43,824 nucleotides of DNA from Bacteroidia bacterium (lineage in GTDB: Bacteria; Bacteroidota; Bacteroidia; Flavobacteriales_D; JAUILH01): positions 1-43,824 of the forward strand of contig JAUILH010000017.1 in NCBI GenBank assembly GCA_030433115.1, written 5' to 3'. Made by a program: the position numbers and the translations under genes. Numbering within the stretch: the stretch's first letter is position 1; each line of letters begins with the position of its first letter. Below are positions 3,001 through 43,824 of this stretch, piece by piece. The notes under the pieces were generated by a model. It worked only from the letters and a program-made list of their open reading frames with translations. It was not told where the DNA came from and ran no database searches.

Positions 3001-4270
3001 ATATTTATGAAAAACCAGTCGCTGATATTTTAACAACAGATAATTGCGTGGATCTTCAGGCAAACTTTACTGATAATTCGAGTGTTGTTGGAGCGGCTAT
3101 TGCAGATTGGGAGTGGGACTTTGGAGACGGAAATACATCATCTGTTCAAAACCCATCACACCAATATGGTTCTGCTGGAACCTATACTGTTCAGTTGATC
3201 GTGACATCAAGCTTTGGATGTGACGATACTGCTACAGTGCAAATTACACAGTTCCCATTGCCTGTAGCTAACTTCACGTATTTGGATGAGTGTGTATACG
3301 ACTCTTTATGTTTTACAAATACATCTAATGTGGCAGCGCCATCTACAATCATCTCACAAGTATGGAGTTTTGGTGACGGTAGTCCATTGAATACAGCGCA
3401 AAACCCTTGTCATTTATATGGTGCAGAAGGGACTTACAATGTGCAATTGATCAGTACATCTGATCAAGGTTGTGCCGATGATACCACCATTACTGTTACT
3501 GTACATCCTCAGCCTAATGTTGATTTCACGGGAACTTCAGTATGTATTAATCAGCCACCGTCTGTATTTACGAATAATTCTAACATAGTCTCCGGTTCTA
3601 TATTACAGTGGAACTGGGATTTTGGAGACGGTTCTTCTCCATCAGCTTTACAAGATCCAACGCATAACTATGGTGCTGCAGGAACATACAATGTGACTTT
3701 GATTGGAATTTCTGACCAGGGTTGTCAGGATACCATTATAAGGTCTGTATCCGTATTTGAGAAACCAATTGCTCAGTTTGGATCTGATGTTACTGAAGGA
3801 TGCGATCCACTGGAAGTTGATTTTATGGACATGTCTACGCACAATGCCAATAACATCACCAATTGGCAGTGGGATTTTGGAAATGGAGCTACCTCCAATC
3901 TTGAAAATCCTGTTGGAATTACTTTTGTTGGATCGGGAACCTTATCGGTTATGAATTATGACGTGTCCTTGATTGTGACAAACGACAATGGTTGTTCAGA
4001 CACAGTTTCCACAACCAGCTACATAACGGTTCACCCAGATCCAGTTGCGGATTTCATGTTTACGCCTGAAGAAACTGATGAGCATAATGCACAAATAGAC
4101 TTCACAAATCTGTCGGTGAATGGTGAGTCGTATTTGTGGGACTTTGGTGATGGTGCTACTTCATTCGATGAAAATCCAGGACATTATTACCAGGATACCG
4201 GTGTGTTTGAAGTCATGTTGGTAGCATACACACAATATGGATGTGCGGATACCGCTTATGGCTATCCTCA
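1..4270 (+). repeat. Array of about 17 PKD-domain repeats (protein-level)
   Basis: Units of roughly 240 bases recur through the gene with recognisable landmarks: a Cys near the first strand, FTDAS, W-x-W-D-F-G-D-G-N-T-S, QNP, a Y-x-V-x-L-x-V strand and a closing G-C. The nucleotide copies are diverged, so this is an old protein repeat and not a recent DNA expansion. The last unit (near 4045-4270) lacks the first Cys. Confidence 0.85.
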
Positions 4271-4571
4271 GATCAACCCAGTACCGGAAATTTATGTGCC
4301 AAACGCATTTACTCCTGATGGAGATGGTGTCAATGATGAATTTAAACCTGTTCTATACGCTTATAATGATGCCCAATACGAATTCTACATTTTCGACAGA
4401 TGGGGTCAAATTATTTTCGAGAGCTTCAGTCCTAATTATGGTTGGGATGGAACATATAAAGGTCAACAGGCCACTGAAAAAACAGATGTATTTGTTTGGA
4501 AAGTGGTGTTAAGACCAAATAATTCAGGTGACACGAAAGAGTATGTTGGGCACGTCACATTGCTCAAGTAA
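1..4571 (+). CDS. Secreted PKD-repeat protein with T9SS type B (gliding motility) C-terminal domain, 5' end missing
   Basis: The reading frame is open from base 3 to the TAA at 4569-4571, so the start lies left of the window; a GTG at 180 is inside a PKD unit and is not a real start. About 17 PKD units follow one another, each about 80 residues, with the core W-x-W-D-F-G-D-G and usually one Cys near the start and one in a final G-C. The last 90 or so residues form a CHU_C/type B sorting domain (VPNAFTPDGDGVND, then FDRWGQ, then YVGHVTLLK). PKD arrays are beta-sandwich stalks of surface or secreted proteins; the C-terminal domain is the usual T9SS signal. Inferred role: cell-surface or extracellular scaffold or adhesin; ligand unknown. 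The downstream gene is a paralogue whose PKD order matches this one. Some units carry acidic D-x-x-x-D-G loops in place of the FGDG turn. Confidence 0.9.
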   Translation, partial: PTAAFNFPQPWCLANAIAFTDASNGNGGTINQWAWDFGDGNTSTNQNPNHTYGTAGPHNVSLTVTTANGCSNTLVQAVTLEPDPTPDFVFNAGCPGQPSSFTDASVAGGTATINQWAWDFGDGNTSTQQNPNNSYAAAGNYNVTLTVTSSTGCVNTVVIPVVVPSGPTVDFTYSPTCDGQAMTFTDATVVPGGSITAWAWDYGDGNTGTGNPANHTYGAAGNYNVTLTATTNAGCTGSVTLPVTVNPNPIADFTFPNPFCAADPLPFTDASNGNGGTINQWDWDFGDGGTDNTQNPTHNYGGALGPFNVTLTVTTTDGCTGNATYPVTLEPAPTPDFTFNPDCPGFATTFNDASVAGGTATINSWTWDFGDGNTSTQQNPSNIYTNPGTYNVQLDIVSSTGCSNTITLPVNVPYEPIAEIDMQNVCDGVVGTFNDVSTVNGGTVVSWGWDMTTDGTVDYTTQTVNHSYGASTYTVTLTVTSDQGCVDDTAMSVTIFPNPIANFSPTTVCEGYPTVMNDLTNANGGVLDTWNWDIGDDGTVEYNTLNPTHSFPAAGTYNVELMVNTVNGCADSIVLPVTVDPTPVPDFTFVVACPTLSTTFTDASAIGGGATITNYAWDFGDGNTSTAQNPSNAYAGPGTYNVQLVVTGSSGCMDSITYQVIIPEIPVASFTLANVCDGVAGNFNDASVVGGGATITNWDWDMENDGNVDYTTQNVTHTYPTNNTYAVHLTVTSDQGCVDDTIANVTIYPNPTADFTALAVCDDEDMSFADNSNGNGGTINQWSWDMDGDGNEDYNVQNPDHLFPGDGNYNVDLTVTTTNGCSGTINLPVTVHPLPTANFNLTNICEGQNANFTDASVVGAGAITGWDWDFGNGNTSTLQNPTETYATENVYTVELIATTDQGCKDTITQTIDVYPNPVADFSPQAVCLNVPVNFMDQSTVSNANTVNNIVNWDWDLGDGTTYTGVQNPPTHIYNPAGAYTIDLTVTTDHGCTDNLSVTLDIYEKPVADILTTDNCVDLQANFTDNSSVVGAAIADWEWDFGDGNTSSVQNPSHQYGSAGTYTVQLIVTSSFGCDDTATVQITQFPLPVANFTYLDECVYDSLCFTNTSNVAAPSTIISQVWSFGDGSPLNTAQNPCHLYGAEGTYNVQLISTSDQGCADDTTITVTVHPQPNVDFTGTSVCINQPPSVFTNNSNIVSGSILQWNWDFGDGSSPSALQDPTHNYGAAGTYNVTLIGISDQGCQDTIIRSVSVFEKPIAQFGSDVTEGCDPLEVDFMDMSTHNANNITNWQWDFGNGATSNLENPVGITFVGSGTLSVMNYDVSLIVTNDNGCSDTVSTTSYITVHPDPVADFMFTPEETDEHNAQIDFTNLSVNGESYLWDFGDGATSFDENPGHYYQDTGVFEVMLVAYTQYGCADTAYGYPQINPVPEIYVPNAFTPDGDGVNDEFKPVLYAYNDAQYEFYIFDRWGQIIFESFSPNYGWDGTYKGQQATEKTDVFVWKVVLRPNNSGDTKEYVGHVTLLK

Positions 4572-29595: not shown

Positions 29596-30399
29596 CTATG
29601 CTAAATAGGTTTGTATAATTCTTTCTATCAGGATGATTAAACCCATGGTGAGCACGAACCATCCAAAAATGGGTTTTAGTTTTTTACCGGGAATGGAGTG
29701 GGAGAGGTAGATGCCTAGAAAAATACCAACCACCGCCAGTCCACTGAATTTCATTAGGAACAACCAATCAATATGAATTCCTGAAGAGATGTCTCCTGAA
29801 AAACCAATGAGGCTGTTGGCCATGATCAAAGCCAGGGAGGTTCCAATGGCTCTTTTAATCGGCATTTTGAATAATTTCACCATCACCGGAATGATCACAA
29901 AACCACCACCCGCGCCAACCAAACTTGTTAGAAAACCAACAATCATGGCGATAATAATCACTATGGGATAATTGACATTATTGGACACCTCAGTTTCCTC
30001 TATGTCTCTCCCTTTAATCATGATGCGTGCTGCCCCGATCATCATAATGGCAAATAAGACCATGATGAACAAATCTTTTTCCAATTCGAATTCTCCAATA
30101 GACACAATGGGATCAGGAATTTGATGAATGATGTAATAACGATTCACCCAAACTGAGATGCTCGCAGGAATGCCAAAAACAAGAAGTGCCTGGATGTTAA
30201 CGAGTTTCTCTTCAAGGTATTTAAAGGTGCCTGCAATACTTGATACGCCCACCACGAATAAAGAGTAGGCGGTTGCTTTTTCAGACGGAATGCTGAATAA
30301 GTAATATAAAATCGGGACACATAAAATGGATCCTCCACCACCGAGTAAACCCAGACTCAGTCCAACAGCAATCGCAGATATGTATCCAATAATTTCCAT
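29596..30399 (-). CDS. Sulfite exporter TauE/SafE family protein
   Basis: 267 residues, mostly transmembrane (about eight helices), with the family-typical glycine-rich repeats GLLGGGGSILCVP near the N-terminus and SLVGAGGGFVIIPVMVKL in the second half, i.e. two halves of the same fold. The family moves sulfite, sulfoacetate or related small anions through the inner membrane. I start at ATG 30399, three bases after the DUF6691 stop. An upstream in-frame ATG at 30546 would add 49 Cys-rich residues that overlap the neighbouring gene and look non-coding. It would export the sulfite made by the persulfide dioxygenase. Confidence 0.93.
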   Translation of the reverse strand: MEIIGYISAIAVGLSLGLLGGGGSILCVPILYYLFSIPSEKATAYSLFVVGVSSIAGTFKYLEEKLVNIQALLVFGIPASISVWVNRYYIIHQIPDPIVSIGEFELEKDLFIMVLFAIMMIGAARIMIKGRDIEETEVSNNVNYPIVIIIAMIVGFLTSLVGAGGGFVIIPVMVKLFKMPIKRAIGTSLALIMANSLIGFSGDISSGIHIDWLFLMKFSGLAVVGIFLGIYLSHSIPGKKLKPIFGWFVLTMGLIILIERIIQTYLA

Positions 30400-30401
30400 A
30401 A

Positions 30402-30815
30402 TTAATGTGGCAATTTGTGCTTTGTTTTGAGGTAAGTGTATGCACCGATCAATGCAAAGATCAAAACAATTATGAAAATAGACGTTCCGGTTGCAATGTG
30501 AATCATAATCGGAGCAGGGCAGGCGCCTGTAAGCGCCCAGCCACAACCAAAGAAAGTACCACCTATCAAAGCTCTTTTTAAAGAGGGATCTTTCTTTGGA
30601 ATGGCAATCATTTTGCCGTCTGACGATTTGGTTTGAAGCACTTTCATGATCTGAAGTCCGATAATGCCTGTGACAACAGCAGAGCCAATCACGCCATACA
30701 TGTGAAATTCCTTAAACTCGAACATGTCCAGAATTCGATACCATGAAATAACTTCACTTTTGTACAGAACCATACCAAATGCAGCCCCCAGCGATACCCA
30801 AATAAACTGTCTCAT
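30402..30815 (-). CDS. DUF6691 half-size YeeE/YedE-type sulfur carrier
   Basis: 137 residues with four hydrophobic helices, the start MRQFIWVSLGAAFGMVLY, and the motif CGWALTGACPAPI, whose cysteines match the pattern used by YeeE/YedE to pass thiosulfate or sulfide across the membrane. It is one half of a two-gene transporter; the other half lies immediately upstream. ATG 30815 is chosen because it follows the upstream stop by one base; an earlier ATG (30875) would overlap that gene. Confidence 0.9.
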   Translation of the reverse strand: MRQFIWVSLGAAFGMVLYKSEVISWYRILDMFEFKEFHMYGVIGSAVVTGIIGLQIMKVLQTKSSDGKMIAIPKKDPSLKRALIGGTFFGCGWALTGACPAPIMIHIATGTSIFIIVLIFALIGAYTYLKTKHKLPH

Positions 30816-30816
30816 A

Positions 30817-31278
30817 CTAAAATAGAATTGGATAAATGATGTGTACAATGAAAAGTCCGCCCGCAAAGAACCCAATCACAGCAATAAGTGAAGGCAGTTG
30901 AAGGGAGCTCAAACCAGTGATCGCATGTCCGGAAGTGCATCCACCTGCATACCGCGCGCCAAATCCTACCAGAAAGCCTCCAACTGCCAGAATCAACCAG
31001 TTTTGCCACTGATCTAAGCTATTCCAGTTGATGTTTTCGGGAAACAGAGATTGTGTGTTTGGATCGACCTGCGCGATTAATGCTGCCCCCAGCATCATCC
31101 CTAAAATGAAGAGGTAGCGCCATTGATGTTTTTCAAAGGACTGTTTCCAAGCATTGCCCTTTTTGGGCTCGATTTCACAAAGATTTTGGAAAACACTAGA
31201 TACACCAAAGCTCTTTCCAAAGTATGTGATTGCTAAAAAGATTAGACCAATCAAAGGTCCGGCAAAATACCATTCCAT
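30817..31278 (-). CDS. YeeE/YedE half-size sulfur carrier
   Basis: 153 residues with four hydrophobic segments and the family motif GARYAGGCTSGHAITG (about residues 103-118), whose Cys lines the transport path in the YeeE thiosulfate transporter. With the following DUF6691 gene it should make a complete carrier for thiosulfate, sulfide or a related sulfur species. A promoter box (31293-31300) and a palindrome (31303-31317) precede it, so the carrier genes can be expressed apart from the regulator gene. Confidence 0.93.
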   Translation of the reverse strand: MEWYFAGPLIGLIFLAITYFGKSFGVSSVFQNLCEIEPKKGNAWKQSFEKHQWRYLFILGMMLGAALIAQVDPNTQSLFPENINWNSLDQWQNWLILAVGGFLVGFGARYAGGCTSGHAITGLSSLQLPSLIAVIGFFAGGLFIVHIIYPILF

Positions 31279-31292
31279 GTTGTAATTTTTGA

Positions 31293-31300
31293 CAAAGGTA
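31293..31300 (-). promoter_or_regulatory. Predicted -7 box of YeeE/DUF6691/TauE unit
   Basis: The minus strand reads TACCTTTG, exact TAnnTTTG, ending 14 bases before the ATG at 31278, so the leader would be about 10 bases. No TTG is seen at the -33 position, which is occupied by a palindrome. Confidence 0.55.
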
Positions 31301-31302
31301 CA

Positions 31303-31317
31303 TCCTTAATTTAAGGA
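31303..31317. promoter_or_regulatory. 15-base perfect palindrome, candidate operator
   Basis: TCCTTAA, a central T and TTAAGGA form a perfect inverted repeat three bases upstream of the -7 box, so it covers the spacer between about -17 and -31. It lies between the Crp/Fnr gene and the carrier genes. The position suits repression, or an unusual mode of activation, by the adjacent regulator. It does not match the classical CRP or FNR half-sites. Confidence 0.5.
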
Positions 31318-31329
31318 GGTTTGTGACTA

Positions 31330-31935
31330 TCATCGCATAAGTAGTTCAATTTGCCCTCTACTGGTTTTCAAGAGGGCTTTCTGTTCCAAACTGTGGAGTA
31401 AACGTGTAACCACTTCTCTACTGCTGTTGAGGTCTCTTGCAATTTCGCTGTGCGTAATTTTAATATGATTGCTTTGATAGAAAACCGTTTTCTTTTTAAG
31501 ATATGCCAGAAGTCGGTCAGATAAATCTCCAAAAATGGTATGATCCAGTTGTTCCATGAGTTCTTGAATCCGGTCATTCAATTTTTCAATAACGAAACGA
31601 AACCATTCCTCAGACAATTGACATAAGGGGTAGATTTGGTCAACCGGAATCATCAAAAGTCGGGTATTGCCTTGAGCATAGGCTCTAACAACGCTGGTTC
31701 TGCTATTTAGACAGCACTTGAGTCCGATGGCACACATGTCTTCTTGCGGTACGCTGTACAAAAAACCTTCCCGGTCTTCACGATCTATGTAGATGTCTAA
31801 GCGACCTTCAAGTGTGATTGGCAGGAAGTTGAGTTGTTCGCCAATATCCACAACAATATCTCCGTCTTCAAAAGACGCTTCTTGTCCAATTTCTTGGAGT
31901 TTTTGGATCAGAATCTCATCCTTAAAGTGAATCAT
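31330..31935 (-). CDS. Crp/Fnr family transcription regulator
   Basis: 201 residues: an N-terminal cyclic-nucleotide-binding-like beta-roll (about 15-110) and a C-terminal winged helix-turn-helix (about 150-200, ITHSEIARDLNSSREVVTRL) with E-V-V-T-R as the usual recognition helix. No nucleotide-binding arginine/serine motif is obvious in the roll. Cysteines sit at 68, 74, 75 and 105, which in this context could sense persulfide or redox state (inference). It starts two bases after the TonB receptor stop and precedes the sulfur carriers, which it most likely controls. Confidence 0.93.
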   Translation of the reverse strand: MIHFKDEILIQKLQEIGQEASFEDGDIVVDIGEQLNFLPITLEGRLDIYIDREDREGFLYSVPQEDMCAIGLKCCLNSRTSVVRAYAQGNTRLLMIPVDQIYPLCQLSEEWFRFVIEKLNDRIQELMEQLDHTIFGDLSDRLLAYLKKKTVFYQSNHIKITHSEIARDLNSSREVVTRLLHSLEQKALLKTSRGQIELLMR

Positions 31936-31937
31936 AC

Positions 31938-34334
31938 TTAGAAGTCTATTCGGTAATAGAAAATGGGCAGGAACCCCAGTTGGTAATTTTCTCTGAAATC
32001 TCTGCCGTCTGGTTGATTAGGTGTGTAGCTGAGCCCTAAAATATTTTGTTGTCCGGTTATGTTCACAAGGTCCAGGGCAATCTCGTGGGTCACCTTTTTG
32101 GCGTTGATTTTATAGTTGATTTTCAAATCAGCCCTGAAGTAATCTCTGAATTGAAATTCGTTGAAATCCTGATCCAAAAATATCAACTCATTTTGAGCGT
32201 AGGAGGCTGTTGTGTCTACTCTGCCATAACGTTGACCTCCTCCCCAGGTTACTTTACCACCAATAGACAGGACGTTCTTTTTGTTGATGGCAAATTCTTT
32301 TCCACCTAGTATATTGGCGATATAGTTCCCGTTGAAATTCGTATTTCTTTCAATGCTATCGCTGCCTTTGTATTTTGAATCAAATAAACTGGCGGTTATC
32401 AGGAAAAAGAAGCTATTGTCAAAGAATTTTTCAACTGTGAGTTCAAGACCGTAGTTGTTTCCGGTTCCTGTATTTTGGAGTGAATCTGGGAAAAATCGGG
32501 CAAATCCTGATCCTTGGTTGACCAAAGAAAATGCGGACGATTCGACTTCAACAGGTACATTGTACAAGTATTGGTAAAACACTTCAGACTTGATTCTCAC
32601 GTTGCTTTTGAAACTTTTGTTGTACCCGAGAACTAAATGTGCACTTTTTGTAACGTCCATGTTCTCGTTATGGTAAATCTTTTCATCGTTGGGTCCGGTT
32701 TTGTGATAGAAGTAGGTGTATAGCGGTTGTATTTGACTGTGAAGTCCGGCCCCGAAATTGATGCTTTGGCTCCTGTCAAGACTATATTTCATTCCGAATC
32801 TGGGTTCAAAAAATGAAAACGAATTACTCTGTTCAAAATAAAGTGCGTGGAGTCCGGTTGTAAGCACTAAATCATCAGTGGCTTTGTATTTCCATTGTAC
32901 GTATGGCTGGATAAGGAAGGTGCTTCCCTTAGCATCCCAGCGTTGGTTAAATTGGGTGTGTGTTGCTTCCAAAGCACTGTCCAGATATTCATAAAGGATC
33001 ATGTCAGCAGTAAGTCCATATTTGATCACATGTTGACGAGTGAGCTTTTTTGTAATGTTTGATGCCAGTTGAATTCTACTACTTTGAAAAACATATCCCA
33101 TCAGTGGATATAAAGAGTCTACTACAAATTCATTAGTGGTGGAGTCTACATGTCTTGCCACATAATCATGGTTCGCATGATTGTTTTCATGACTAAAGGC
33201 CAAAGTAGTGGCGAAATAAGTGTCTTTGTTCAGAGTCTTGGAAAACCTGGTTCCCAAAACACCCATGCCTGTTCCAAAATACTGGTCACGATCGTTGTCT
33301 CCATAAAATTCCAGTGACGCTTCTTTTTGATCAGAAATTTTGATGGCAATGTCACTAATTCCGCCAACACCAAAAATGCCCCAATGCCCCTGGTTTTTTG
33401 TTGGTAGAATTATTTTGAAAGCGGCATCCTGATATCTGGGAATGGCATCTGTACCCACATCAATTCCTGCGGCTTGAAAGATACCAAGCGTAGAGTAGCG
33501 GTAGTTAGCGAGATAAGAAGAGCCTTTTTGCTTGTTGATTGGTCCCTCTGCGTTTAGTTCCATGCCTAACACACCAAATTGACCAGTGAATTCGTGATTG
33601 AGATTATTACCGTTTCTGAAGTTAAGATCAAATACAGCAGAGATGCTGTTGCCATACTCCGCGGGAAAGGCACTCGTGAAAAAATCACCATTAGAGAGGA
33701 CCTTGTTGTTCAATATGCTCTGTGGTCCGCCCTGAGAACCTGCGATTGCGAAATGGTTGGGGTTTGGGATTTGAATGCCCTCCACTTGCCACAAAATACC
33801 AATAGGAGAATTACCTCTTACTACAATGTCATTTCTGGAATCATCGGTACCCTGAACACCCGCATAATTGGATGCCATTCTTGCGGGGTCTCCACGACTG
33901 CCTGCATACCGGTCTGTTTCTTCTACGGAGAACCTTCGAGCACTTACCATCGCCATTTCGTTGCCGGCTTCACCTCTTGGGGTATCATCTTTAATGACTA
34001 AATCCCCCATATCGGATACGGATTCTTCCATTTCAATGGTGAGCAGTACTTCCTTTCCTGAATAGAGATTGATGTCCGTAATAAAATCTCTGTAGCCCAC
34101 GTAAGTGCATATCAAAGTGTGTTTTCCAATTGGAACATCAGAAATAATAAACGAACCGTCCATTTCTGTGCCGACTTTGAAGAGAACTGTAGAATCTTTA
34201 ACGATCTGAACTTTGACACCAATTAATGCGCCTCTTGTCTCTATGTCAACCACCTTGCCCCGTATATTTTGAGTGATCTGCGCTGAAACAGATATACTGA
34301 ATAAAATGACGAGTACCGTGCTAAGAATTTTCAT
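31938..34334 (-). CDS. TonB-dependent outer-membrane receptor with carboxypeptidase-like regulatory domain
   Basis: 798 residues: a signal peptide (STVLVILFSISVSAQ), a carboxypeptidase-regulatory-like beta-sandwich (about 22-105, GKVVDIETRGALIGVKV, GTEMDGSF), a plug (about 120-250, RNDIVVRGNSPIGILWQVEG, SAFPAEYGNSISAVFDL) and a 22-strand-type barrel ending in an aromatic residue (FYYRIDF). No SusD partner is adjacent, so a polysaccharide system is unlikely; the substrate is unknown. It is the first gene of the leftward block, two bases from the Crp/Fnr gene, with a predicted leaderless promoter. Whether it serves sulfur uptake or only shares the regulator is open. Confidence 0.93.
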   Translation of the reverse strand: MKILSTVLVILFSISVSAQITQNIRGKVVDIETRGALIGVKVQIVKDSTVLFKVGTEMDGSFIISDVPIGKHTLICTYVGYRDFITDINLYSGKEVLLTIEMEESVSDMGDLVIKDDTPRGEAGNEMAMVSARRFSVEETDRYAGSRGDPARMASNYAGVQGTDDSRNDIVVRGNSPIGILWQVEGIQIPNPNHFAIAGSQGGPQSILNNKVLSNGDFFTSAFPAEYGNSISAVFDLNFRNGNNLNHEFTGQFGVLGMELNAEGPINKQKGSSYLANYRYSTLGIFQAAGIDVGTDAIPRYQDAAFKIILPTKNQGHWGIFGVGGISDIAIKISDQKEASLEFYGDNDRDQYFGTGMGVLGTRFSKTLNKDTYFATTLAFSHENNHANHDYVARHVDSTTNEFVVDSLYPLMGYVFQSSRIQLASNITKKLTRQHVIKYGLTADMILYEYLDSALEATHTQFNQRWDAKGSTFLIQPYVQWKYKATDDLVLTTGLHALYFEQSNSFSFFEPRFGMKYSLDRSQSINFGAGLHSQIQPLYTYFYHKTGPNDEKIYHNENMDVTKSAHLVLGYNKSFKSNVRIKSEVFYQYLYNVPVEVESSAFSLVNQGSGFARFFPDSLQNTGTGNNYGLELTVEKFFDNSFFFLITASLFDSKYKGSDSIERNTNFNGNYIANILGGKEFAINKKNVLSIGGKVTWGGGQRYGRVDTTASYAQNELIFLDQDFNEFQFRDYFRADLKINYKINAKKVTHEIALDLVNITGQQNILGLSYTPNQPDGRDFRENYQLGFLPIFYYRIDF

Positions 34335-34338
34335 GATT

Positions 34339-34346
34339 CAAAATTA
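34339..34346 (-). promoter_or_regulatory. Predicted -7 box, leaderless, of TonB receptor gene
   Basis: The minus strand reads TAATTTTG, exact TAnnTTTG, ending four bases before the ATG at 34334. No convincing -33 TTG is seen at 17-23 bases upstream. Confidence 0.5.
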
Positions 34347-34383
34347 CCCAAAGTGACCGGATTCGATTTACGGAATATCGCAA

Positions 34384-35319
34384 TTACTCCATCATCGCTT
34401 TCTCCTTACTCTTGTATACACTGCCCTCCGTGAATTTAATTCCGAGCATTAATTCATGAGTTCCTGTGCTGTAATTTCTGAGATTGGTGGTTGTGAAATC
34501 GTAAGAATAACCAATTTCAAGGCTGCCTTTGTGGTTATAACCAATCATTGCTGACCAGGCATCATTAGTCCTGAAGGAACCTCCAATCCAAACGGCTTTT
34601 TTATAAATGGCTCTTACGCCGGCGTCCAATTTGAGAGGAGCGGGTGTGACGTACTTCACTAAAAGATTGGGTTCAACCTGAAAGTCTTCTCCAAGATCAA
34701 ATTTATAGGCTCCATGAACTAAAAAGTGTCTTTCCAAACGACTCAATGCAGAGGTCTGATAATTGAAGAAATACAACTTGTTTCCCAATAAATTCGGAAT
34801 GGCCGCACCAAAATGCCACTTATCATTTTGATAAAGGTAGATGCCAAATTTTGCATCAAATACGGTTGAAGATTGCAAGCCTTCACTTATTACTGCATCC
34901 GCTGGATTTTTTAATCTGATTTTAGAACCATCAACGAGCCATTGCAATACACCGGCAGACAATCCCATAGAAAGTTTGATGCTTTCATCTCCGTTGTCAT
35001 TCAATTTCAAATGATAGGCATATGAGGCTTGAGCGCCAATTCTTCTGGTGGGACCTACAATATCTGTATAAACGAATCCTCCATAGCCCATTTTTCGGTT
35101 TTTGCTAGGACCGGAAACTGAGACGGTATAGGTTCTTGGTGCATCTGTAATACCTACCCATTGATAACGGTTGTTGGACCTCACATCATAGTAAGGCAAA
35201 CTTCCTGCAAACGCCGGGTTGAAGGCATATTGATTAAACATGAATTGACTGTACTGCGGAAGTTGCTGAGCCTTCACCATGCCGCACATAAATACTAATA
35301 TGACAAGTAAGCTTTTCAT
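34384..35319 (-). CDS. PorP/SprF family type IX secretion membrane protein
   Basis: 311 residues with a signal peptide (LLVILVFMCGMVKAQ) and the family hallmark just after it: LPQYSQFMFNQYAFNPAFAG, followed by R-x-Q-W-V-G-I. The remainder is an amphipathic beta-barrel pattern, as expected for an outer-membrane barrel. In gliding bacteria SprF is encoded directly after SprB and is needed to move the adhesin to the surface through T9SS; type B substrates generally have such a partner. Its ATG overlaps the adhesin stop by one base (TAATG), so it is co-translated with it. Confidence 0.94.
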   Translation of the reverse strand: MKSLLVILVFMCGMVKAQQLPQYSQFMFNQYAFNPAFAGSLPYYDVRSNNRYQWVGITDAPRTYTVSVSGPSKNRKMGYGGFVYTDIVGPTRRIGAQASYAYHLKLNDNGDESIKLSMGLSAGVLQWLVDGSKIRLKNPADAVISEGLQSSTVFDAKFGIYLYQNDKWHFGAAIPNLLGNKLYFFNYQTSALSRLERHFLVHGAYKFDLGEDFQVEPNLLVKYVTPAPLKLDAGVRAIYKKAVWIGGSFRTNDAWSAMIGYNHKGSLEIGYSYDFTTTNLRNYSTGTHELMLGIKFTEGSVYKSKEKAMME

Positions 35320-36977
35320 TATCTCAGTATGGTTATTGGTCCGGTAAACGGTTCGGGATACAGCGGATGATTTAACTCAATTACATAATAATACGTGCCA
35401 ACGGGGAGAGGTTTGTTGTTGTATTGACCATCCCATTCTTCAACATAACCAACAGATCTGAATAGTAAGTCTCCCCATCTATTGTAAACTTCAACGACAC
35501 TTTCGGGAAACTCCTGAATAAAGTCGATTTCCCAGGTTTCATTAACACCATCTCCGTTTGGAGAGAATCCATTAGGGAAAATAATATCCGGGAAGACGTT
35601 CACCGTCATGGTGTCTTTGTTCTCACAGCCATTCACATCAACTACTGTTACAATGTATTGAGTGGTAGTGTCAGGATCTACTGTTGGATTGAATTCGGTG
35701 GAGTCAGACATCCACATATTAGGTTCCCAGGCAATGGTAGATCCCGGAGGTCCGGTAGGCGATCCGCCGATATTGGTTTCTTCACCTTTGATGATATCTA
35801 TGTCTGGTCCGGTATCTGCTACAGGCAGAGGATTTACCGTAATAACCACTGTGTCTTGATCCACACAAAGCCCTTCAACCGCTTCAAAAATATAGGTGTA
35901 AGTTCCAGCGGGTTCATTAACAGTCAAAAGACTATCTGAATCTATCACGTTCCCTTGATCATCATACCAGGTATAACTCAGGTTATTTGAGCCAGTTCCT
36001 TGTCCAATGATGTCGAATGTGTTACCTACACAATAACTCGTATCCGGACCAGCATCTGCAAGAACCACAATCATGGTGTCAACGGCAATGGTATCCGTGA
36101 ATGTACAGTTATTATTGTCCGTCACGGTGACTATATAATTCATCGGCAGCAAGTCTGTTGGATCTTCGTCTGTTGAAGTAAATCCAGCAGGATCGGATGT
36201 CCAACTATAATTGTATCCAGGTGTTCCTCCCGACATAGTAATCTCAATGAAGCCATCGTCTGAATCCTTACACAAGGCGTCATGAACAGAGTCAATAGCA
36301 ATTGCCATTGGGAGTGGTTCATTGATGTTAATGGTTTGTTGAGCGGTGCACCCATTGCCATCTGTTACATCAACAGTATACACACCACTTGCCAAGCCAG
36401 TAGCGTGAGAAGTGCCTTGTCCTGCGCCAGGAGCAGGACTCCATGTATAGCTGTATGGCAGTGTTCCACCAATTACAACTGCATGAGCTTCTCCATCTGC
36501 GGAGCCACTGCAAAGTGCATCAAATTCTGTTGGAATGCTAAATTGGAATCCACTTGGTGCAGTGATTTCAGCTTGAGCAAATGCCAGACAACCAGCCCCA
36601 TCAGTTACTTGTAATATGTATTGGCCTGGGCATAAACCGGTGGCAACATCAGAAGCTTGTCCGATGGACGTCCCTGTAAAATCTTGCCAGTCATATGTCA
36701 TTGGTTGTGTGCCCCCCGTTGTATCAGATGAAATTGATCCGTCACAAGCGCCATCACAACTTGCATCAGTAGGTTCCAGAGTGAGCGTTGGTCCATTCGA
36801 TCCGTTTATTGGGAATGCAAACGTTTCAACACAGCCGTTGGCGTCTTCAATATCAACAAAGTAAATACCTTCGCACAGGTTGTTGATGCTGGGTGCCAGG
36901 TCCGTGTGACCAGGTGTAAATGTATGGAGCGGTTCCACCATCGCCTTGAGTTGTGATTTCTCCGTCACAAGCGCCAC
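35319..36977 (-). CDS. C-terminal part of giant SprB-repeat adhesin, after frameshift, with T9SS type B domain
   Basis: The open frame runs from ATG 36977 to TAA 35319 (552 residues), but homology to the repeats begins only near 36893, where it takes over from the upstream frame. It holds the second half of repeat 29 (SINNLCEGIYFVDI), repeats 30-32 (D-A-S-C-D-G-A-C-D-G and similar), two Ig-like units with Y-T-W and V-x-V-x-D-x-N-G-C patterns, and the type B sorting domain IIFPNGFSPNGDGVNE...VYNRWGDLLF. By itself it has no signal peptide, so it is most likely the tail of the upstream frame, not an independent gene. Confidence 0.8.
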   Translation of the reverse strand: MALVTEKSQLKAMVEPLHTFTPGHTDLAPSINNLCEGIYFVDIEDANGCVETFAFPINGSNGPTLTLEPTDASCDGACDGSISSDTTGGTQPMTYDWQDFTGTSIGQASDVATGLCPGQYILQVTDGAGCLAFAQAEITAPSGFQFSIPTEFDALCSGSADGEAHAVVIGGTLPYSYTWSPAPGAGQGTSHATGLASGVYTVDVTDGNGCTAQQTININEPLPMAIAIDSVHDALCKDSDDGFIEITMSGGTPGYNYSWTSDPAGFTSTDEDPTDLLPMNYIVTVTDNNNCTFTDTIAVDTMIVVLADAGPDTSYCVGNTFDIIGQGTGSNNLSYTWYDDQGNVIDSDSLLTVNEPAGTYTYIFEAVEGLCVDQDTVVITVNPLPVADTGPDIDIIKGEETNIGGSPTGPPGSTIAWEPNMWMSDSTEFNPTVDPDTTTQYIVTVVDVNGCENKDTMTVNVFPDIIFPNGFSPNGDGVNETWEIDFIQEFPESVVEVYNRWGDLLFRSVGYVEEWDGQYNNKPLPVGTYYYVIELNHPLYPEPFTGPITILR

Positions 36978-39900
36978 AATCCGTTGGGGTTATGACTGTA
37001 ATGTCTGTTATAGGCGCAGGGTCTGCAATGTTAACTTCAACCGTTCTAATACATCCGTTGGCATCTGTGATTTGCAAGAAATAGGTTCCGGCTGATAAGT
37101 TAGTAATGGAGTTGGACGTACTGTTATCGTGTAACCATAAGAAGTCGTAAGGAGCCGTTCCACCAATTGGTGTCACGCTGGCATCACCATCAGATCCTCC
37201 ATGGCAACTTGGGCTATTGACTGTTATTGATTCTCCAGTTGGTCCCCCAATGTTCGTAACTGCAGCCACCAAATTAACAAGACAGCCATTATCATCAGTG
37301 ATGTCAACCGAGTAGGTTCCAGGGCAAAGGTTGCTGATATTGTTTCCAGTTTGACCTGTGGTCCAGATGAGACTCAAGCTCCCAGTACCTCCACTAGCAG
37401 TGGCAGCAATTTCTCCATCGCACAAACCGCACGTTGCATCTGTCACATTAAAACTGGCTGTGATTTCCAATGGCTCATTGATTTGAATGGTTTCAAAGGC
37501 AATACATCCGGCAGCGTCTGTAACCTTTACAGTGTATGAACCGGCAGTAACTCCAGCCAAATCTTGTCCAACCTGCCCGCCAGGATTCCAGACATATTGG
37601 AAAGGTGAGCTAACTCCCGTCACACTGATATCTATCGATCCGTTATTGCCTCCAAAACAGCTCACATCAACCACATCATCAACTGAGATGATAGGTGCGT
37701 CAATGTTGCCAATGTTCGCCTGCACAATCTCCGAACAACCAGCATTATCTGTGATTTCTACAAAATAAGTCCCTGCAGCTACTCCGCTGAGTGTTGGGTT
37801 GGTTTCACCTGCCAAAGGAGTCATCGTATCATCAAACCATTGGTAAGTGTAATTTGGCGTGCCTCCACTAGGTGTAGCTGTCGCTTCACCATCAGGTGTG
37901 TTACAACTAGCATCATTCACATTAATCACTGCATCAATGATGTCTGGAGTTTCTATATTAAAGTTAAGAGGGCCTACTGAACACCCATTTTGATCGAATA
38001 CTTCAACCGTATACACATCTTCACACAAGCTGTTGGCTGAATTGCCGGATGCTCCCGAAACGGATTGTCCTTGAGAATCTAACCAATTAAATAAGTAGGC
38101 GCCTGTTCCTCCGTTAACTGTTACTAATGCTGTGCCATCACATAGGCCATCACAGGTGCCATCTGTGGCGGCAACACTGGCAGTTAATTGGGGAGGTTCT
38201 ACGATAGTCACGGTTGGTGTGGTGAATGAACACCCATTGTTATCTACCACAATTGCAAAGTAGTCACCTGCACAGAGATTAGTAGCACTGGTTCCTGTTT
38301 GTCCGATGGCCTGACCTCCACCATCAAACCAATTAATAGTATATGTGGCGGTACCTCCCGTAATGACTATGTCAGCAGTTCCATCGCATGCGCCAAAACA
38401 ATTCATGTCTGTTGAGCTAATGGTTGCTGATAATGCGATTGGCTCATCTATGGTAGTTGGTCCAACAGTGATAGAGCATCCGGACAAATCGGTAACAATT
38501 ACTGAGTAGTCATCAGGACCGGCTCCGGTGATGGTAGAGTTAGTCTCTCCTGGAATTGGTGTCATTGTGCCATCCAGCCATTGGAAGGTATATGGGAATG
38601 AGCCTCCAGTCGGAATCACTTCTGCAGTTCCATCATTGGCACCATTACAAAGAATATCTGTTGAACTGATAGTAGCCGTGATAGGATTTGGGGCGTTGAT
38701 CGTGAAAGTGAAAGTGGAATCACAACCGTCAGAATCAGTAATAAGTACACTCCACTGACCAGCACCTAAACCTGTTGCAGTTGGTGTTCCCTGCCCGCCG
38801 CCTGGAGCAGGTGACCAAGTATAGGTAAAGCCTGCACCGGTTCCTCCAGTTGGGGCCACTGTAATCTGACCATCTGTGTCACCGTCACAAGTTATAGATG
38901 TGATGGTTTCATTGGCTTCAAATTCTGTTGGTTCGTTCACGGTTACCTGAGCTACGCTGATACAACCAGAGTTATTGGTTACCTGAACAAAGTAATCTCC
39001 CCCGTCAAGTCCAGTTGCAGTCAATCCGGTTTGTCCAATGGGATTGCCCTGATCATCAAACCACGCTTGTGTACATCCGGGATCGTTGCAAGTATAGATG
39101 ACATCAGCTGTACCATTGTTGGAATCAAAACAGGTCGCGTCTGTTGATGATGTTGCCAAAACTTCCGCTCCTATATCAGATACGGTCACACCGAAAGTTT
39201 CAGTACAACCTCCTTGATCAGTTACATCCACAGAATAGATTCCGGCACACAATTGTGTAGCAACTTGAGTACCTTGTCCGCCCCCTGGAGCAGGCGACCA
39301 TGTGAAATTAAACCCACCGTATCCACCAACCGGGGAAATTGATGCACTGCCATCACACTGTCCGCAGGTAGAGTTATTTGAAACGAAGGTTGCGGTAATT
39401 TCGGTTGGTTCAATTAGGGTAATGGTGGTGTCGGTTAAACAGCCATCACTGTCCTGAATATTTACTGTGTAAGTTCCATCGCCCAAACCAGATATACCTG
39501 GAGTTGTTTCTCCATTTGGTGTCCAGTTGTAGATGTATCCGCCAGAACCTCCTGATACACTGGTAGAGATTGCACCATCATTGTCACCATTACACGTGAT
39601 TTGAGTGATTGTAGCATTGGCAAGTATTTCACTTGGGGAATTAATGGTAACGGAGATGGTAGTATCACATCCCGCAAAATCTGAAATAAGAACGGTATAG
39701 TTACCTGCACACATTTGAGAGGCATTTGCAGTTCCTTGTCCTGCTCCTGGTGCAGCCGACCAAGTGAAGTTGTAAGGTGCAGTTCCACCTGTAACTGTGA
39801 GTGAGGCGGTTCCGTCACAAACCCCAAAACAGGAAACATCCGCTACACTTGAACTGATGTCGAAAGCCGCTGGCTCATCAACATCTATTGAGCTAATGAG

Positions 39901-42900
39901 TTCTGTACAACCATTTAAATCCGTAATCTCAACAGAGTAGGTGCCACCGCAAAGGTTAGTAATGATGTCACCAGTTCCTCCGGCAATAGGATTGACCCCA
40001 TCGAACCACTGGAAGTCATAATTATTGATTCCGCCAACTGGATTTACTTGAGCAGTTCCATTACAGTCACCGTTGCAAGTGACATCAGTCGCACTTAATG
40101 TTCCCGTTAATTGAGCAGGCTCGATGATGTCAACACAGACAGATGTTTGAGCGCAATTAGATTGATCCGTCACAACGACATAGTAGCTTCCCGCACCTAG
40201 TCCAGTGGCTTGTTGTCCTGTTTGACCAACGGGTACATCAGTAATGCATTCGAACCACTCATAAGTATAGGGACCTACCCCACCAGTAGGTATAACAGTA
40301 GCGACTCCATCTGTTAAGCCAAAACATGAAATATCTGAACTTGAAATGTCGCTTACATCCAACACCGGTGGATCAGTTAGTGTGAAGCTTTCAGTAGCGG
40401 TACAGCCATTCACATCTGTTACAGTTACATCCCAGTTGCCTGCAGTCAGGCCAGTTGCAGTGTTTGTACCCTGACCGCCAAGAGGTGCAGGTGACCAGTT
40501 AAATCCGAAACCACCAGCTCCACCAGTAGGATTTACTGTGGCGGTTCCGTTTACATCTCCAGCACATTGCGGTTGAGTGAAAGAGGAGGTCAACAAAATC
40601 TCATCTCCTTCATTGATAGTATATGCTTGAGTGGATACACATCCGGAATTATTGGTGACTTCAACAAAGTAGTCTCCAGCACACAACGAGCCAATGTTGT
40701 CGTTAGTTTCTCCTGGAAGAAAAACACCATTTCCATCAAACCACTGGAAAGTACAAACTGGGTCTGAGCAAACCACAGTAGCAGTTGCCGTGCCTGTACA
40801 ATCTCCAAAGCAAAGTACATCTGTAGATGAAGGCGTGATGACCTCCGAAACCACATCTGTGACCACGACTGGAACGGTTTCAGTACAACCAACATCATCA
40901 GTGATGATCACACTATACACCCCGGCACACATGCTAGTTCCATTAGGAGTGCCTTGTCCGACACCTGGAGCAGGAGTCCATTGATAATTGGTAAAATTGC
41001 CTGACCCACCAGCTGCTGTTATGGTAGCTGTTCCGTCACAGAGTACACAATTGGATTGTGTGGAGTTGATATTGGCAGTAATTTCGGGGTTTTCACTGAT
41101 GGTGAAGTTTGGAGTGGTTGCCGTACATCCTGCCTGATCAGTAACAACTGCAAAATAATCGCCAGCACACAGGTTGAAAGTGCTTAGGCCGGTGCCCAGA
41201 GAAGATCCATCAGACGCGTCAAACCATTCAACGGTATAGTTAGGTGTTCCCCCGTTCACAGTGGCTGTGGCTGAACCAGTGCAGTCTCCAAAACATGTCG
41301 CGCCGCTACTGTTAACTGAGATAGTTAAGGGTTGAGGTGCTGAAATTGTGATTGGAATAATGGAGTCGCATCCATTTAAATCGCTGACAGTAACGTTGTA
41401 GTTTCCGGCACAAAGACCATTGGCTGTTGGGTTAGTCTGACTTAATGGGTCATCCCATTGGAAACTGTAACCTGGGGTTCCTCCGCTATTGACGGTTACG
41501 GTGGCAGTACCGTCGCATACACCATCGCAAGTGGCATCTGTAAATGAAGTGCTTAGATCATATGGAGCAGGTTCTGTAATGGTACCGGAACCGTTTACAG
41601 TACATCCATTGTCGTCAGTAACATCTACATCATAGGTGCCTGCGCACAGATCACTGATTGTGCTGGTTCCCTGACCAGTTGGTGGGTTGTTGGTCCAGTT
41701 GAACTGCAATGTTCCAGTTCCACCATTGGCGTTAGCCTGAATCACGCCTTCGCAGTCCCCATTACAATCATTATCGGCAACAACAGTCACTGTTAGGTTA
41801 ATTGGACTTGCCGGATTAATGGTAAAGCTGAAAGTCGAATCACATCCTCCTTGGTCACTTATGGTACAGGTATATGTGCCGGGACAGAATCCAGAGGCAT
41901 TTGGAGTTCCTTGACCAGTGATGCCAGCTCCAGGCGCATAGGTGAATGAAATGGGGGCTACTCCTCCACTGTTTAATGTAATATCAATGCTACCATCACA
42001 ATCTCCTGTACACGTTTCATGAGTAATGACGCTTGTAAAATCGTATGGCGAGGGTTCGTTAATGACAATAACGGTGTCAATAAAACATCCCAGACCATCG
42101 GTGATATTCAAATCGTAGGACCCAGCACACATTTGGGTCGCATTGGGGTTTCCTGCTCCGGATGGTGGGGCTGGTGTCCATGTGTAAGTGAAGTTGCCAT
42201 CTCCACCAGCGGCATTAACGGTTGCAGTTCCGTCACAATCTCCATTACAGGAGGCATCTGTTGTTGTAACATTTGCAGTTATTGGGGGATTTCCGTTGAT
42301 GGTAAATGGAACAGGAGCAGAAGCACAACCATTGTCATCGAACACCTGTACGGTGTAATCACCTGCGCACAAACCTCCGATATTGTCCAAAGGACCTGAT
42401 AGAATGGTGGTGCCAGAAGAGACTTCAACCCATTCGTATGTATACGGCGCTGTTCCACCTGCCGGAACAACACTTGCCGATCCATCACACACACCATCAC
42501 ATGTGGCGTCATTTGGCGAGACAACCCCTGTAACCAAAATTAAATCGTTGATCGTGAATACTGCTGTGGTATCATCACATCCATTGTCGTCTGTAGCGAC
42601 AGCATAATAGGTGCCTGTGCACAAGGTATTGATAGTGGTGCCAGTTCCTACGACTGCATCAGTTACTGCGTTGTGCCAATTTATGGTGATTGATCCTGTG
42701 CCGCCCAAAGTGGAGGCAGTAGCCGATCCATCACATGCACCGCCACATGTGGCATCAGTGGTGTTTGTTATTGAAACCGAAAGCGGAGCTGGGTCTGCGA
42801 AAGTAATACATGAACTGGCATTGTCGATTGTACAGCCATTGTCGTCTGTTACTTCAACCGAATAACTTCCCGCACACAAGCCATTGATGGTTGGATTGGT

Positions 42901-43824
42901 TTCACCCGGAATAACTGCTGGTGGCGCACATGTCGACCATACATATGAATATGGTGCCACACCACCTCCGGCATTCGCATCAATGCTTGCATCACAGCTG
43001 TTAAAGCAGTTTATATCGGTTGTGATCGGGTTAAGGGTAAGTGGATCTGGTTCGTTTATTGTGAAAAATGCAGTATCATCACAGGAGTTGTCATCAATGG
43101 CTACCACAAAATAATCACCAGCACACAAAATATTGCCCGTTGTTAGGGCTGTTCCAGACGAAATTAAACCTGTGGTGGTGCTATGCCATTCTATGGTATA
43201 ATTCCCTGCGACTGATCCGCCAACTGGGTTTGCAGTGGCAGAACCAGTACAATCACCAGCACACAGGATATCGGCAGGCGTTACTGTCACAGTGAGTTCA
43301 GTTGGTTCGTTGATGGTGAAAGGTGCAGATTGTATGGTGCATGCAGATTGATCGGTCACTTCTAAAATGTAATCTCCTGCGCATAGATTTGAGATGTTAG
43401 GTCCGTTTCCTTGATTAACGCCTCCCGGAGAAGAAATCCAGGTGAAGTTGTACCCGGGATTTCCTCCAATGGCACTTGCAGCAGCACTTCCGGAACAATC
43501 ACCGAAACAACTTACATCAGTTGGCGTGATGGTTGGAATGATTTGATCTGGTTGAGTAATGGTGAAATTATTGGATTGGAATGTACACCCATTATCGTCT
43601 GTTACAATGACATAATAATCACCTGCACACAAGTTTTCAGCAAGTCCGTCAGTATCTTGTCCAGCAACGGGTGTATTGGTATTGGCATCAAACCACTGAT
43701 AAGTGAAGGGAGCAGTTCCATTACTCGCGGAAACTTCAATCTCTCCAATGCATTCGCCAAAGCAGGTAAGGTTCACTTGATTGATAGTAGTTACAATCAT
43801 TGGAGTGGGTTCTGTGATGGTGAT
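36853..43824 (-). CDS. Giant SprB-repeat cell-surface adhesin, N-terminal part, gene start beyond right edge
   Basis: The frame is open to the window edge (the last eight codons read ITITEPTP), so the ATG at 43800 is internal. It encodes 29 SprB-type repeats of about 75-80 residues: T-x-x-x-C-x-G-x-C-D-G-x-A, G-G-T-x-P-Y-x-Y-x-W, L-C-A-G-x-Y-x-V-x-V-T-D-x-N-G-C, then T-I-x-E-P. SprB is the mobile adhesin of gliding flavobacteria, exported by T9SS and moved along the cell surface. Adjacency to SprF supports that class, although a non-motile adhesin of the same build is possible. The frame runs into a stop at 36853 soon after a frameshift near 36890, just before the rest of the protein. With the tail the protein exceeds 2800 residues in this window alone. 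Confidence 0.85.
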   Translation of the reverse strand: MTITEPTPMIVTTINQVNLTCFGECIGEIEVSASNGTAPFTYQWFDANTNTPVAGQDTDGLAENLCAGDYYVIVTDDNGCTFQSNNFTITQPDQIIPTITPTDVSCFGDCSGSAAASAIGGNPGYNFTWISSPGGVNQGNGPNISNLCAGDYILEVTDQSACTIQSAPFTINEPTELTVTVTPADILCAGDCTGSATANPVGGSVAGNYTIEWHSTTTGLISSGTALTTGNILCAGDYFVVAIDDNSCDDTAFFTINEPDPLTLNPITTDINCFNSCDASIDANAGGGVAPYSYVWSTCAPPAVIPGETNPTINGLCAGSYSVEVTDDNGCTIDNASSCITFADPAPLSVSITNTTDATCGGACDGSATASTLGGTGSITINWHNAVTDAVVGTGTTINTLCTGTYYAVATDDNGCDDTTAVFTINDLILVTGVVSPNDATCDGVCDGSASVVPAGGTAPYTYEWVEVSSGTTILSGPLDNIGGLCAGDYTVQVFDDNGCASAPVPFTINGNPPITANVTTTDASCNGDCDGTATVNAAGGDGNFTYTWTPAPPSGAGNPNATQMCAGSYDLNITDGLGCFIDTVIVINEPSPYDFTSVITHETCTGDCDGSIDITLNSGGVAPISFTYAPGAGITGQGTPNASGFCPGTYTCTISDQGGCDSTFSFTINPASPINLTVTVVADNDCNGDCEGVIQANANGGTGTLQFNWTNNPPTGQGTSTISDLCAGTYDVDVTDDNGCTVNGSGTITEPAPYDLSTSFTDATCDGVCDGTATVTVNSGGTPGYSFQWDDPLSQTNPTANGLCAGNYNVTVSDLNGCDSIIPITISAPQPLTISVNSSGATCFGDCTGSATATVNGGTPNYTVEWFDASDGSSLGTGLSTFNLCAGDYFAVVTDQAGCTATTPNFTISENPEITANINSTQSNCVLCDGTATITAAGGSGNFTNYQWTPAPGVGQGTPNGTSMCAGVYSVIITDDVGCTETVPVVVTDVVSEVITPSSTDVLCFGDCTGTATATVVCSDPVCTFQWFDGNGVFLPGETNDNIGSLCAGDYFVEVTNNSGCVSTQAYTINEGDEILLTSSFTQPQCAGDVNGTATVNPTGGAGGFGFNWSPAPLGGQGTNTATGLTAGNWDVTVTDVNGCTATESFTLTDPPVLDVSDISSSDISCFGLTDGVATVIPTGGVGPYTYEWFECITDVPVGQTGQQATGLGAGSYYVVVTDQSNCAQTSVCVDIIEPAQLTGTLSATDVTCNGDCNGTAQVNPVGGINNYDFQWFDGVNPIAGGTGDIITNLCGGTYSVEITDLNGCTELISSIDVDEPAAFDISSSVADVSCFGVCDGTASLTVTGGTAPYNFTWSAAPGAGQGTANASQMCAGNYTVLISDFAGCDTTISVTINSPSEILANATITQITCNGDNDGAISTSVSGGSGGYIYNWTPNGETTPGISGLGDGTYTVNIQDSDGCLTDTTITLIEPTEITATFVSNNSTCGQCDGSASISPVGGYGGFNFTWSPAPGGGQGTQVATQLCAGIYSVDVTDQGGCTETFGVTVSDIGAEVLATSSTDATCFDSNNGTADVIYTCNDPGCTQAWFDDQGNPIGQTGLTATGLDGGDYFVQVTNNSGCISVAQVTVNEPTEFEANETITSITCDGDTDGQITVAPTGGTGAGFTYTWSPAPGGGQGTPTATGLGAGQWSVLITDSDGCDSTFTFTINAPNPITATISSTDILCNGANDGTAEVIPTGGSFPYTFQWLDGTMTPIPGETNSTITGAGPDDYSVIVTDLSGCSITVGPTTIDEPIALSATISSTDMNCFGACDGTADIVITGGTATYTINWFDGGGQAIGQTGTSATNLCAGDYFAIVVDNNGCSFTTPTVTIVEPPQLTASVAATDGTCDGLCDGTALVTVNGGTGAYLFNWLDSQGQSVSGASGNSANSLCEDVYTVEVFDQNGCSVGPLNFNIETPDIIDAVINVNDASCNTPDGEATATPSGGTPNYTYQWFDDTMTPLAGETNPTLSGVAAGTYFVEITDNAGCSEIVQANIGNIDAPIISVDDVVDVSCFGGNNGSIDISVTGVSSPFQYVWNPGGQVGQDLAGVTAGSYTVKVTDAAGCIAFETIQINEPLEITASFNVTDATCGLCDGEIAATASGGTGSLSLIWTTGQTGNNISNLCPGTYSVDITDDNGCLVNLVAAVTNIGGPTGESITVNSPSCHGGSDGDASVTPIGGTAPYDFLWLHDNSTSNSITNLSAGTYFLQITDANGCIRTVEVNIADPAPITDITVITPTDCGACDGEITTQGDGGTAPYIYTWSHGPGTQHQQPVRRYLLC
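36889..36900 (-). other. Frameshift site in giant adhesin gene
   Basis: On the minus strand the upstream frame reads Y-I-Y-T-W-S-H-G-P-G-T and then leaves the repeat pattern, while the next frame reads S-I-N-N-L-C-E-G-I-Y-F-V-D-I, the proper second half of a repeat. One extra base, for example in the CCC at 36891-36893, or two missing bases would restore one frame. Confidence 0.85.

Follow-up and report, generated by a model that had tools for sequence, protein, structure and literature searches.

Predicted disulfide staples between neighbouring SprB repeats in a giant surface protein of a Bacteroidia bacterium

Results

The window analysed here is a whole stretch of 43,824 nucleotides, contig JAUILH010000017.1 of a Bacteroidia bacterium (GenBank assembly GCA_030433115.1). 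A giant surface protein, whose conserved cysteines are the subject of this study, has its C-terminal part encoded on the minus strand of the window, between 43824 and 35319. In this part, 32 SprB units (PF13573; about 36084..43785) are followed by an Ig_7-like domain, then by a last domain and finally by a type B signal of the type IX secretion system (T9SS). The contig end at 43824 cuts the adhesin gene at its 5' end, and the gene is frameshifted as assembled, which is either a real change or an assembly error. Two reading frames overlap at 36853..36977 within unit 29, whose first half lies in the 43824-36853 frame and whose second half lies in the 36977-35319 frame; the two halves were tabulated apart. 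Both frames pass the PF13573 gathering cut-off of 28 bits, with 567 and 78.2 bits, and Tandem Repeats Finder listed no array within 30000-43824. On the same strand, the Ig_7-like domain (35823..36071) and the last domain (35592..35816), both with approximate ends, are followed by the CHU_C/TIGR04131 type B T9SS C-terminal signal at 35319..35582, which scores 70.9 bits for TIGR04131 (cut-off 35) and 91.7 bits for CHU_C (cut-off 27).

The SprB units carry two or four conserved cysteines, at columns 11 (Cys1), 15 (Cys2), 51 (Cys3) and 65 (Cys4) of the unit alignment. A first-pass annotation had reported that Cys1 and Cys4 are constant and that Cys2 and Cys3 come and go together, and recounting bears this out. 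All 32 units have Cys1 and Cys4; 21 have Cys2 and Cys3 as well (units 1-13, 16, 17, 19, 23, 24, 27, 29 and 30), and 11 have neither of these two (14, 15, 18, 20, 21, 22, 25, 26, 28, 31 and 32), with no mixed unit. Eleven randomly placed absences would match perfectly in 32 units with a chance of 7.8e-9, which is not a strict probability because the window units share ancestry.

To place these counts, we assembled 2104 units that each cover the span from Cys1 to Cys4. They come from 105 sources, comprising the window itself, 20 stretches plus one locus of the window's genome, stretches from 56 more genomes of the same phylum, and three contigs of metagenome-assembled genomes (MAGs). Labels beginning with L, G and f are our handles for loci, genomes and families. 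Cys2 and Cys3 are both present in 319 of these units and both absent in 1767, while 13 have Cys3 only and 5 have Cys2 only, so that repeats with a single one of the two are rare in other genomes as well (18/2104). Shared descent was controlled for with 843 non-overlapping nearest-neighbour unit pairs that are more than 45% identical outside the cysteine columns; 94 of them differ in Cys2 or Cys3, and both cysteines change in 88 of the 94. Additionally, Cys2-Cys3 (15-51) ranks first of 2701 intra-unit pairs in a covariation analysis of 1968 unit pairs. Among the mixed units, Cys2 is replaced in 7 of the 13 Cys3-only cases by a cysteine in the loop after the conserved Trp, which, judged from the sequences, looks like a change of partner. 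Five of the 18 are one related unit with a lone cysteine at column 52, and one (L141) does not look like SprB. Four of the five Cys2-only units have a lone A-B-loop cysteine that was called as Cys2, and the fifth (L033) is without explanation. The repeat-internal Cys2-Cys3 pair predicted by the first-pass annotation is therefore well supported by linked presence, linked change in close relatives and the top covariation, and by a predicted location at the same pole of the domain.

Cys1 and Cys4 follow a different rule. Both are present in 2000 of the 2104 units, exactly one is lost in 99, and both are lost in 5. All five same-unit double losses, among 104 units with a loss, are non-SprB domains of one protein, L136; with L136 kept, the same-unit table over all 2104 units gives p = 0.012. 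Neighbouring units were compared in 1884 distinct adjacent pairs under strict cysteine calling. Cys1 of unit n and Cys4 of unit n+1 are both present in 1854 pairs and both absent in 21, with single losses in 6 and 3 (Fisher p = 6e-41), i.e., the two agree in 1875 of 1884 pairs. Being present or absent together in this way is one mark of the proposed disulfide-stapled tandem stalk. In the same unit, counted on the first member of each adjacent pair, both are absent once and one alone is absent in 26 and 47 cases (p = 0.5). When unit order was permuted within arrays, the observed co-loss of 24, a count that ignores gaps, compared with a mean of 8.8 and a maximum of 15 in 2000 permutations.

Eleven of the 21 double losses fall in L112 and L142, two in L117, one in L121 and one in L136 (not SprB), and the rest in a group of arrays with one break each (L031, L143, L081, L088, L096 and L145). 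The neighbour co-loss persists without L112, L142 and L136 (p = 7e-21), and also without the single-break group, which leaves 3 double and 6 single losses (p = 1e-7). Relaxed calling gives 14 single losses and 22 double losses in 1904 pairs. These single-loss exceptions were interpreted one by one after they had been seen. The cysteine has moved upstream by an A-B-loop insertion in L122 (twice), L123 and L124, has moved within the F-G region in L112 and L142, and is replaced by a linker cysteine in L102, L108 and L140; the exceptions in L033, L136 and the window plus strand are not SprB units, that in L096 lies at a contig edge, and that in L145 is an ambiguous call.

The covariation analysis points to the same partners. 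Among 5901 inter-unit pairs, with primes denoting unit n+1, 11-65' (Cys1 of n with Cys4 of n+1) ranks first with a score of 4.85 and z of 25, and the same-unit pair 11-65 ranks 191 of 2701. Without L112, L142 and L136, 11-65' still ranks first, and it ranks second when the single-break group is removed too. After the cysteine couplings were removed, 17-26', 10-63', 13-26' and 17-63' were within the 30 top inter-unit pairs, and these place the A-B loop of unit n against the B-C and F-G turns of unit n+1. Within the unit, parallel A-G pairing was recovered (9-73, 12-75 and 8-74), which brings Cys1 next to columns 73-75, with about ten residues of extended chain separating it from the same-unit Cys4 at column 65.

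In Ig-like folds, the A-B and E-F ends face the next domain and the F-G turn faces the previous one. An AlphaFold2 model of units 22-25 (37687..38691, minus strand; 2, 4, 4 and 2 cysteines), built on a 63-row alignment, has a mean predicted local distance difference test (pLDDT) of 96.9 and a predicted template modelling score (pTM) of 0.79. In each of the four modelled units, the A-B loop holds Cys1 and the F-G turn holds Cys4; in units 23 and 24, Cys2 shares the A-B loop with Cys1, and Cys3 sits at the E-F turn. Thus, Cys1 and Cys4 of one unit are predicted to lie at opposite poles, and Cys2 and Cys3 at the same pole. The model also matches many Ig tandems, such as titin, Robo and NCAM, and hence says just that this is an Ig-like chain. 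A model of the C-terminal region (pLDDT 91) gives the same placement for the cysteines of units 31 and 32, the Ig_7 domain and the last domain. The spacing along the chain is even: in the window, 24-25 residues lie between Cys4 of n and Cys1 of n+1 in 30 of 31 junctions and 28 in one, and in the comparison set the median is 25 (interquartile range 24-25, standard deviation 1.7, n=1800) versus a standard deviation of 4.8 for repeat length (n=1810).

A bond between neighbours makes predictions for the chain ends. The last domain has no following neighbour and is expected to keep Cys4 and lack Cys1; the first unit has no preceding neighbour and is expected to keep Cys1 and lack Cys4. Of the last domains matched by profile, 28 of 29 are without the A-B-loop cysteine (Cys1). 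Reading of 39 C-termini found 36 without it, and the three that keep it (L101 twice, L129) have a spare cysteine in the linker to the C-terminal domain (CTD). Eleven of the 39 end rows fitted the CTD pattern and kept Cys1, and by reading ten of these are internal units and one is L101. A second protein set came from a separate search (120 of 1591 proteins, nearly all of one Algoriphagus family). There, 111 of 111 assessable first units, mostly from one lineage, have Cys1 and no Cys4, the stretch of roughly 95 residues ahead of the CTD motif has one cysteine in 105 of 105 cases, and 665 of 666 internal pairs have both cysteines, the remaining one having lost Cys4 alone. The N-terminal test in the first set was mixed and weak, being a heuristic applied to 18 open reading frames: five had neither an upstream cysteine nor Cys4, seven had both, five had Cys4 without an upstream cysteine, and one showed the reverse.

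At the C-terminal end of the window protein, the cysteine chain runs on through two non-SprB domains. Cys1 of unit 32 (36270..36272) has as its predicted partner the F-G-turn cysteine of the following Ig_7 domain (35865-35867), and the cysteine at the end of the Ig_7 A strand (36030-36032) has as its predicted partner the F-G-turn cysteine of the last domain (35625-35627), which is itself without an A-B-loop cysteine (all on the minus strand). In an alignment of 18 such C-termini, C89, C144, C169, C224 and C304 are invariant, and the last domain is again without the A-B-loop cysteine.

Extra cysteines occur in five window units, two each in units 4, 13, 15 and 20 and one in unit 8. In the comparison set, 219 units have extra cysteines, with an even number (two or four) in 147 and an odd number in 72. 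They lie exactly at columns 56-70 in 70 of 2104 units and at 54-72 in 19 of 2104, forming an F-G ladder. Extra cysteines therefore often pair at positions that fit the predicted Ig-like fold.

Some arrays lack the neighbour pair at particular junctions. In L112 (G060) and L142 (G282), which belong to one genus, every third junction is without the pair along most of the array: junctions 1, 4, 13, 16 and 19 in both, junction 10 also in L142, and partial matches at others fit. The units of these two arrays would then come as covalent triplets. The six single-break arrays (families f1, f3, f6 and f11) have their break with 20-24 detected units before the C-terminus, and in all six an extra cysteine pair occurs in the unit that precedes the break.

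Discussion

The cysteine matching, the neighbour register, the end rules and the covariation are observations, and the Ig-like fold and the loop positions are predictions. Together they make it likely that each SprB unit is joined to the next by a Cys1(n)-Cys4(n+1) disulfide, and that the 21 four-cysteine units of the window add an internal Cys2-Cys3 disulfide. For the constant bond, neighbouring units are the most likely partners on sequence and model grounds, because joint loss in the same unit is confined to L136 while Cys1 of n and Cys4 of n+1 are lost together.

The first-pass annotation had placed both bonds within single units, with Cys2-Cys3 formed in 21 of them and Cys1-Cys4 in every one, giving independent modules that are doubly or singly locked. 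The Cys2-Cys3 half of that proposal agrees with the linked presence, linked change and covariation described above, and the presence of both Cys1 and Cys4 in 2000 of 2104 units would suit its other half. However, no SprB unit has lost both Cys1 and Cys4, since the five double losses are the non-SprB domains of L136. First units have Cys1 without Cys4 (111/111), and last domains have Cys4 without Cys1 (28/29). Column 11 adjoins columns 73-75 of the parallel G strand, about ten residues from column 65. The joint loss of Cys1 of n with Cys4 of n+1 and the predicted opposite poles contradict a same-unit Cys1-Cys4 bond as well, and we rejected it on co-loss, end rules and topology; as a whole, the within-unit scheme is most improbable. 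The reverse register, Cys1 of n+1 with Cys4 of n, was also rejected, as it has just 4 double losses (p = 0.02).

The same cysteines could bind a metal instead of forming disulfides, given that Cys1, Cys2 and Cys3 of unit n and Cys4 of unit n+1 are all predicted to meet at one junction. A single four-cysteine site is hard to reconcile with two separate pairs: kept junctions comprise 1533 without Cys3 in unit n and 321 with it, and Cys3 persists at 3 of the 21 lost junctions. The extra cysteines, two or four in 147 of 219 units, also speak for pairs, and we regard a metal site as very unlikely. Copying without any bond is a further explanation, in which the four-cysteine units are one copied subfamily and the neighbour register stems from block duplication. 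The units are indeed related, and related proteins have some of their breaks at comparable positions. Yet Cys2 and Cys3 change together in 88 of the 94 close pairs that are discordant, a Trp-loop cysteine replaces Cys2 in 7 of 13 Cys3-only units, and unit copying does not account for the end rules or for the continuation into non-SprB domains. Inheritance as the full explanation hence has little to commend it, and we give it no better chance than the within-unit scheme.

Several points weigh against stapling of neighbours by disulfides. Support for the disulfides is sequence and prediction throughout, and the sample was drawn from high-scoring arrays. Within the 32 window units Cys1 and Cys4 are invariant, so that support for an inter-unit bond there comes from the end domains and from relatives. 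The co-losses are found in few lineages, with two genomes from a single genus contributing 11 of the 21 and with one co-loss (L136) that is not SprB, and the reverse register is not free of association, with 4 double losses beside 40 and 44 single ones. When a randomly chosen unit of the same array served as the second unit, 11-65' still ranked second (score 1.25, z 8, symmetric signal), and with unit n+2 it ranked fourth (z 6); part of the 11-65' covariation is therefore array-level background. Without the break lineages, the same-unit pair 11-65 rises to ranks 68 and 57 of 2701. The C-terminal model has a pTM of 0.57. L116 and L123 have a linker cysteine before the CTD without an A-B-loop cysteine. 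Odd extra cysteines occur in 72 of 219 units, including a lone cysteine at column 57 in 30 units without an evident partner, to which window unit 8 perhaps adds another, and a lone cysteine at column 52 in five related units. Finally, the window's genome, which is 93.7% complete, gave no DsbA, DsbB, VKOR or Thioredoxin_4 match.

If neighbouring units are stapled, the A-B-loop Cys1 of unit n would be bonded to the F-G-turn Cys4 of unit n+1 at each junction, and the Cys2-Cys3 bond would fasten the domain core at the same pole. Since every bond would lead from a unit n to its successor n+1, the array would contain two interleaved covalent paths. Each path would be built from short disulfide-linked segments of 24-25 residues with a predicted extended shape, which reach from the G strand of n through the linker to the A strand of n+1. 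Its route would lead from an A strand through the disulfide to the F-G turn of the next domain, along that domain's G strand and into the A strand after that, and the B-F cores would hang as rungs between the two paths. The mechanics, like the oxidation of the cysteines to disulfides on the cell, is what we infer from this arrangement. Pulling at the tip would load the paths while the cores stay folded, so that stretching would be limited and a secreted type B T9SS stalk, with a PorP/SprF protein as its anchor, would keep near its folded length. With textbook lengths, a path of about 26 steps plus the disulfide spans about 9 nm per two domains versus about 58 nm for the full chain of two units. 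The length of about 9 nm is close to that of two folded Ig domains, and intact staples would thus leave almost no slack. Missing staples would act as hinges if staples stiffen the stalk. That SprB-repeat stalks in general are disulfide-braided cables, which bypass the domain cores, cannot be unfolded by force even at tens of domains and are tuned by the cells through omitted staples (each third junction in one protein, a single junction 20-24 units ahead of the C-terminus in another), is a proposal to which we give an even chance. If true, covalent junction staples and a core-skipping load path would explain how very long force-bearing T9SS stalks avoid unfolding.

Aureispira grappling hook protein A (GhpA) forms a heptamer. 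It is also the best structural and sequence match to the window protein (cryo-electron microscopy structures 9fls, 9flu, 9flx and others), and both have a homologous tandem Ig-like stalk. The GhpA domains look closer to Ig_7 than to PF13573, as judged by eye from partial sequence.

SprB of Flavobacterium johnsoniae presumably carries PF13573 repeats itself, as its family name suggests. The window protein resembles the F. johnsoniae SprB/SprF system in its PF13573 repeats, its type B T9SS signal and the adjacent PorP/SprF gene. This gene lies directly downstream of the adhesin at 34384..35319 on the minus strand and encodes a PorP/SprF family membrane protein (PF11751, 256.4 bits; TIGR03519, 268.5 bits). 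A twin-cysteine motif in the C-tail of SprF bonds it to GldK, according to PMC12635249. The PorP/SprF protein of the window differs from the SprF described there, as it is without the twin-cysteine C-tail and its sole cysteine is located in the N-terminal signal-like region. We do not file the window protein as a gliding SprB because its neighbour lacks this tail.

Isopeptide and ester bonds of stalk domains lie within a domain. Such domains resemble the stalk proposed here in using a covalent cross-link against mechanical stress (PMC12617251, PMC8382745), but the predicted staples would join successive domains. RTX adhesins (PMC7493085) also have a long stalk of tandem beta-sandwich domains, with each junction stiffened individually; they use Ca2+ in the linkers, whereas the window protein has predicted covalent cysteine pairs. 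A search of the open literature, whose coverage leaves most subscription papers outside, found no description of disulfides in SprB repeats or of junction staples, and the word 'disulfide' is absent from the main text of the two open-literature papers that use the phrase 'SprB repeat'.

The genome of the window is rich in predicted disulfide proteins despite having no match to the usual oxidases. Among relatives from its order, VKOR was found in 1 of 40 and a DSBA-family match in 18 of 40. This raises the question of the oxidant for these bonds in genomes without a usual oxidase match.

Scanning named genomes with two window units brought up three relatives with 31-42% identity, all in MAGs (Vicingaceae, Flavobacteriales and Bacteroidia). 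A second large open frame at 1-4571 on the plus strand of the window, cut by the contig start, has several SprB-unit profile matches, some of them partial. The window's genome (G000) has at least 150 SprB-repeat matches over many contigs, as counted with 150 of 282 candidates scored, and they include a 4013-residue open frame on contig C146.

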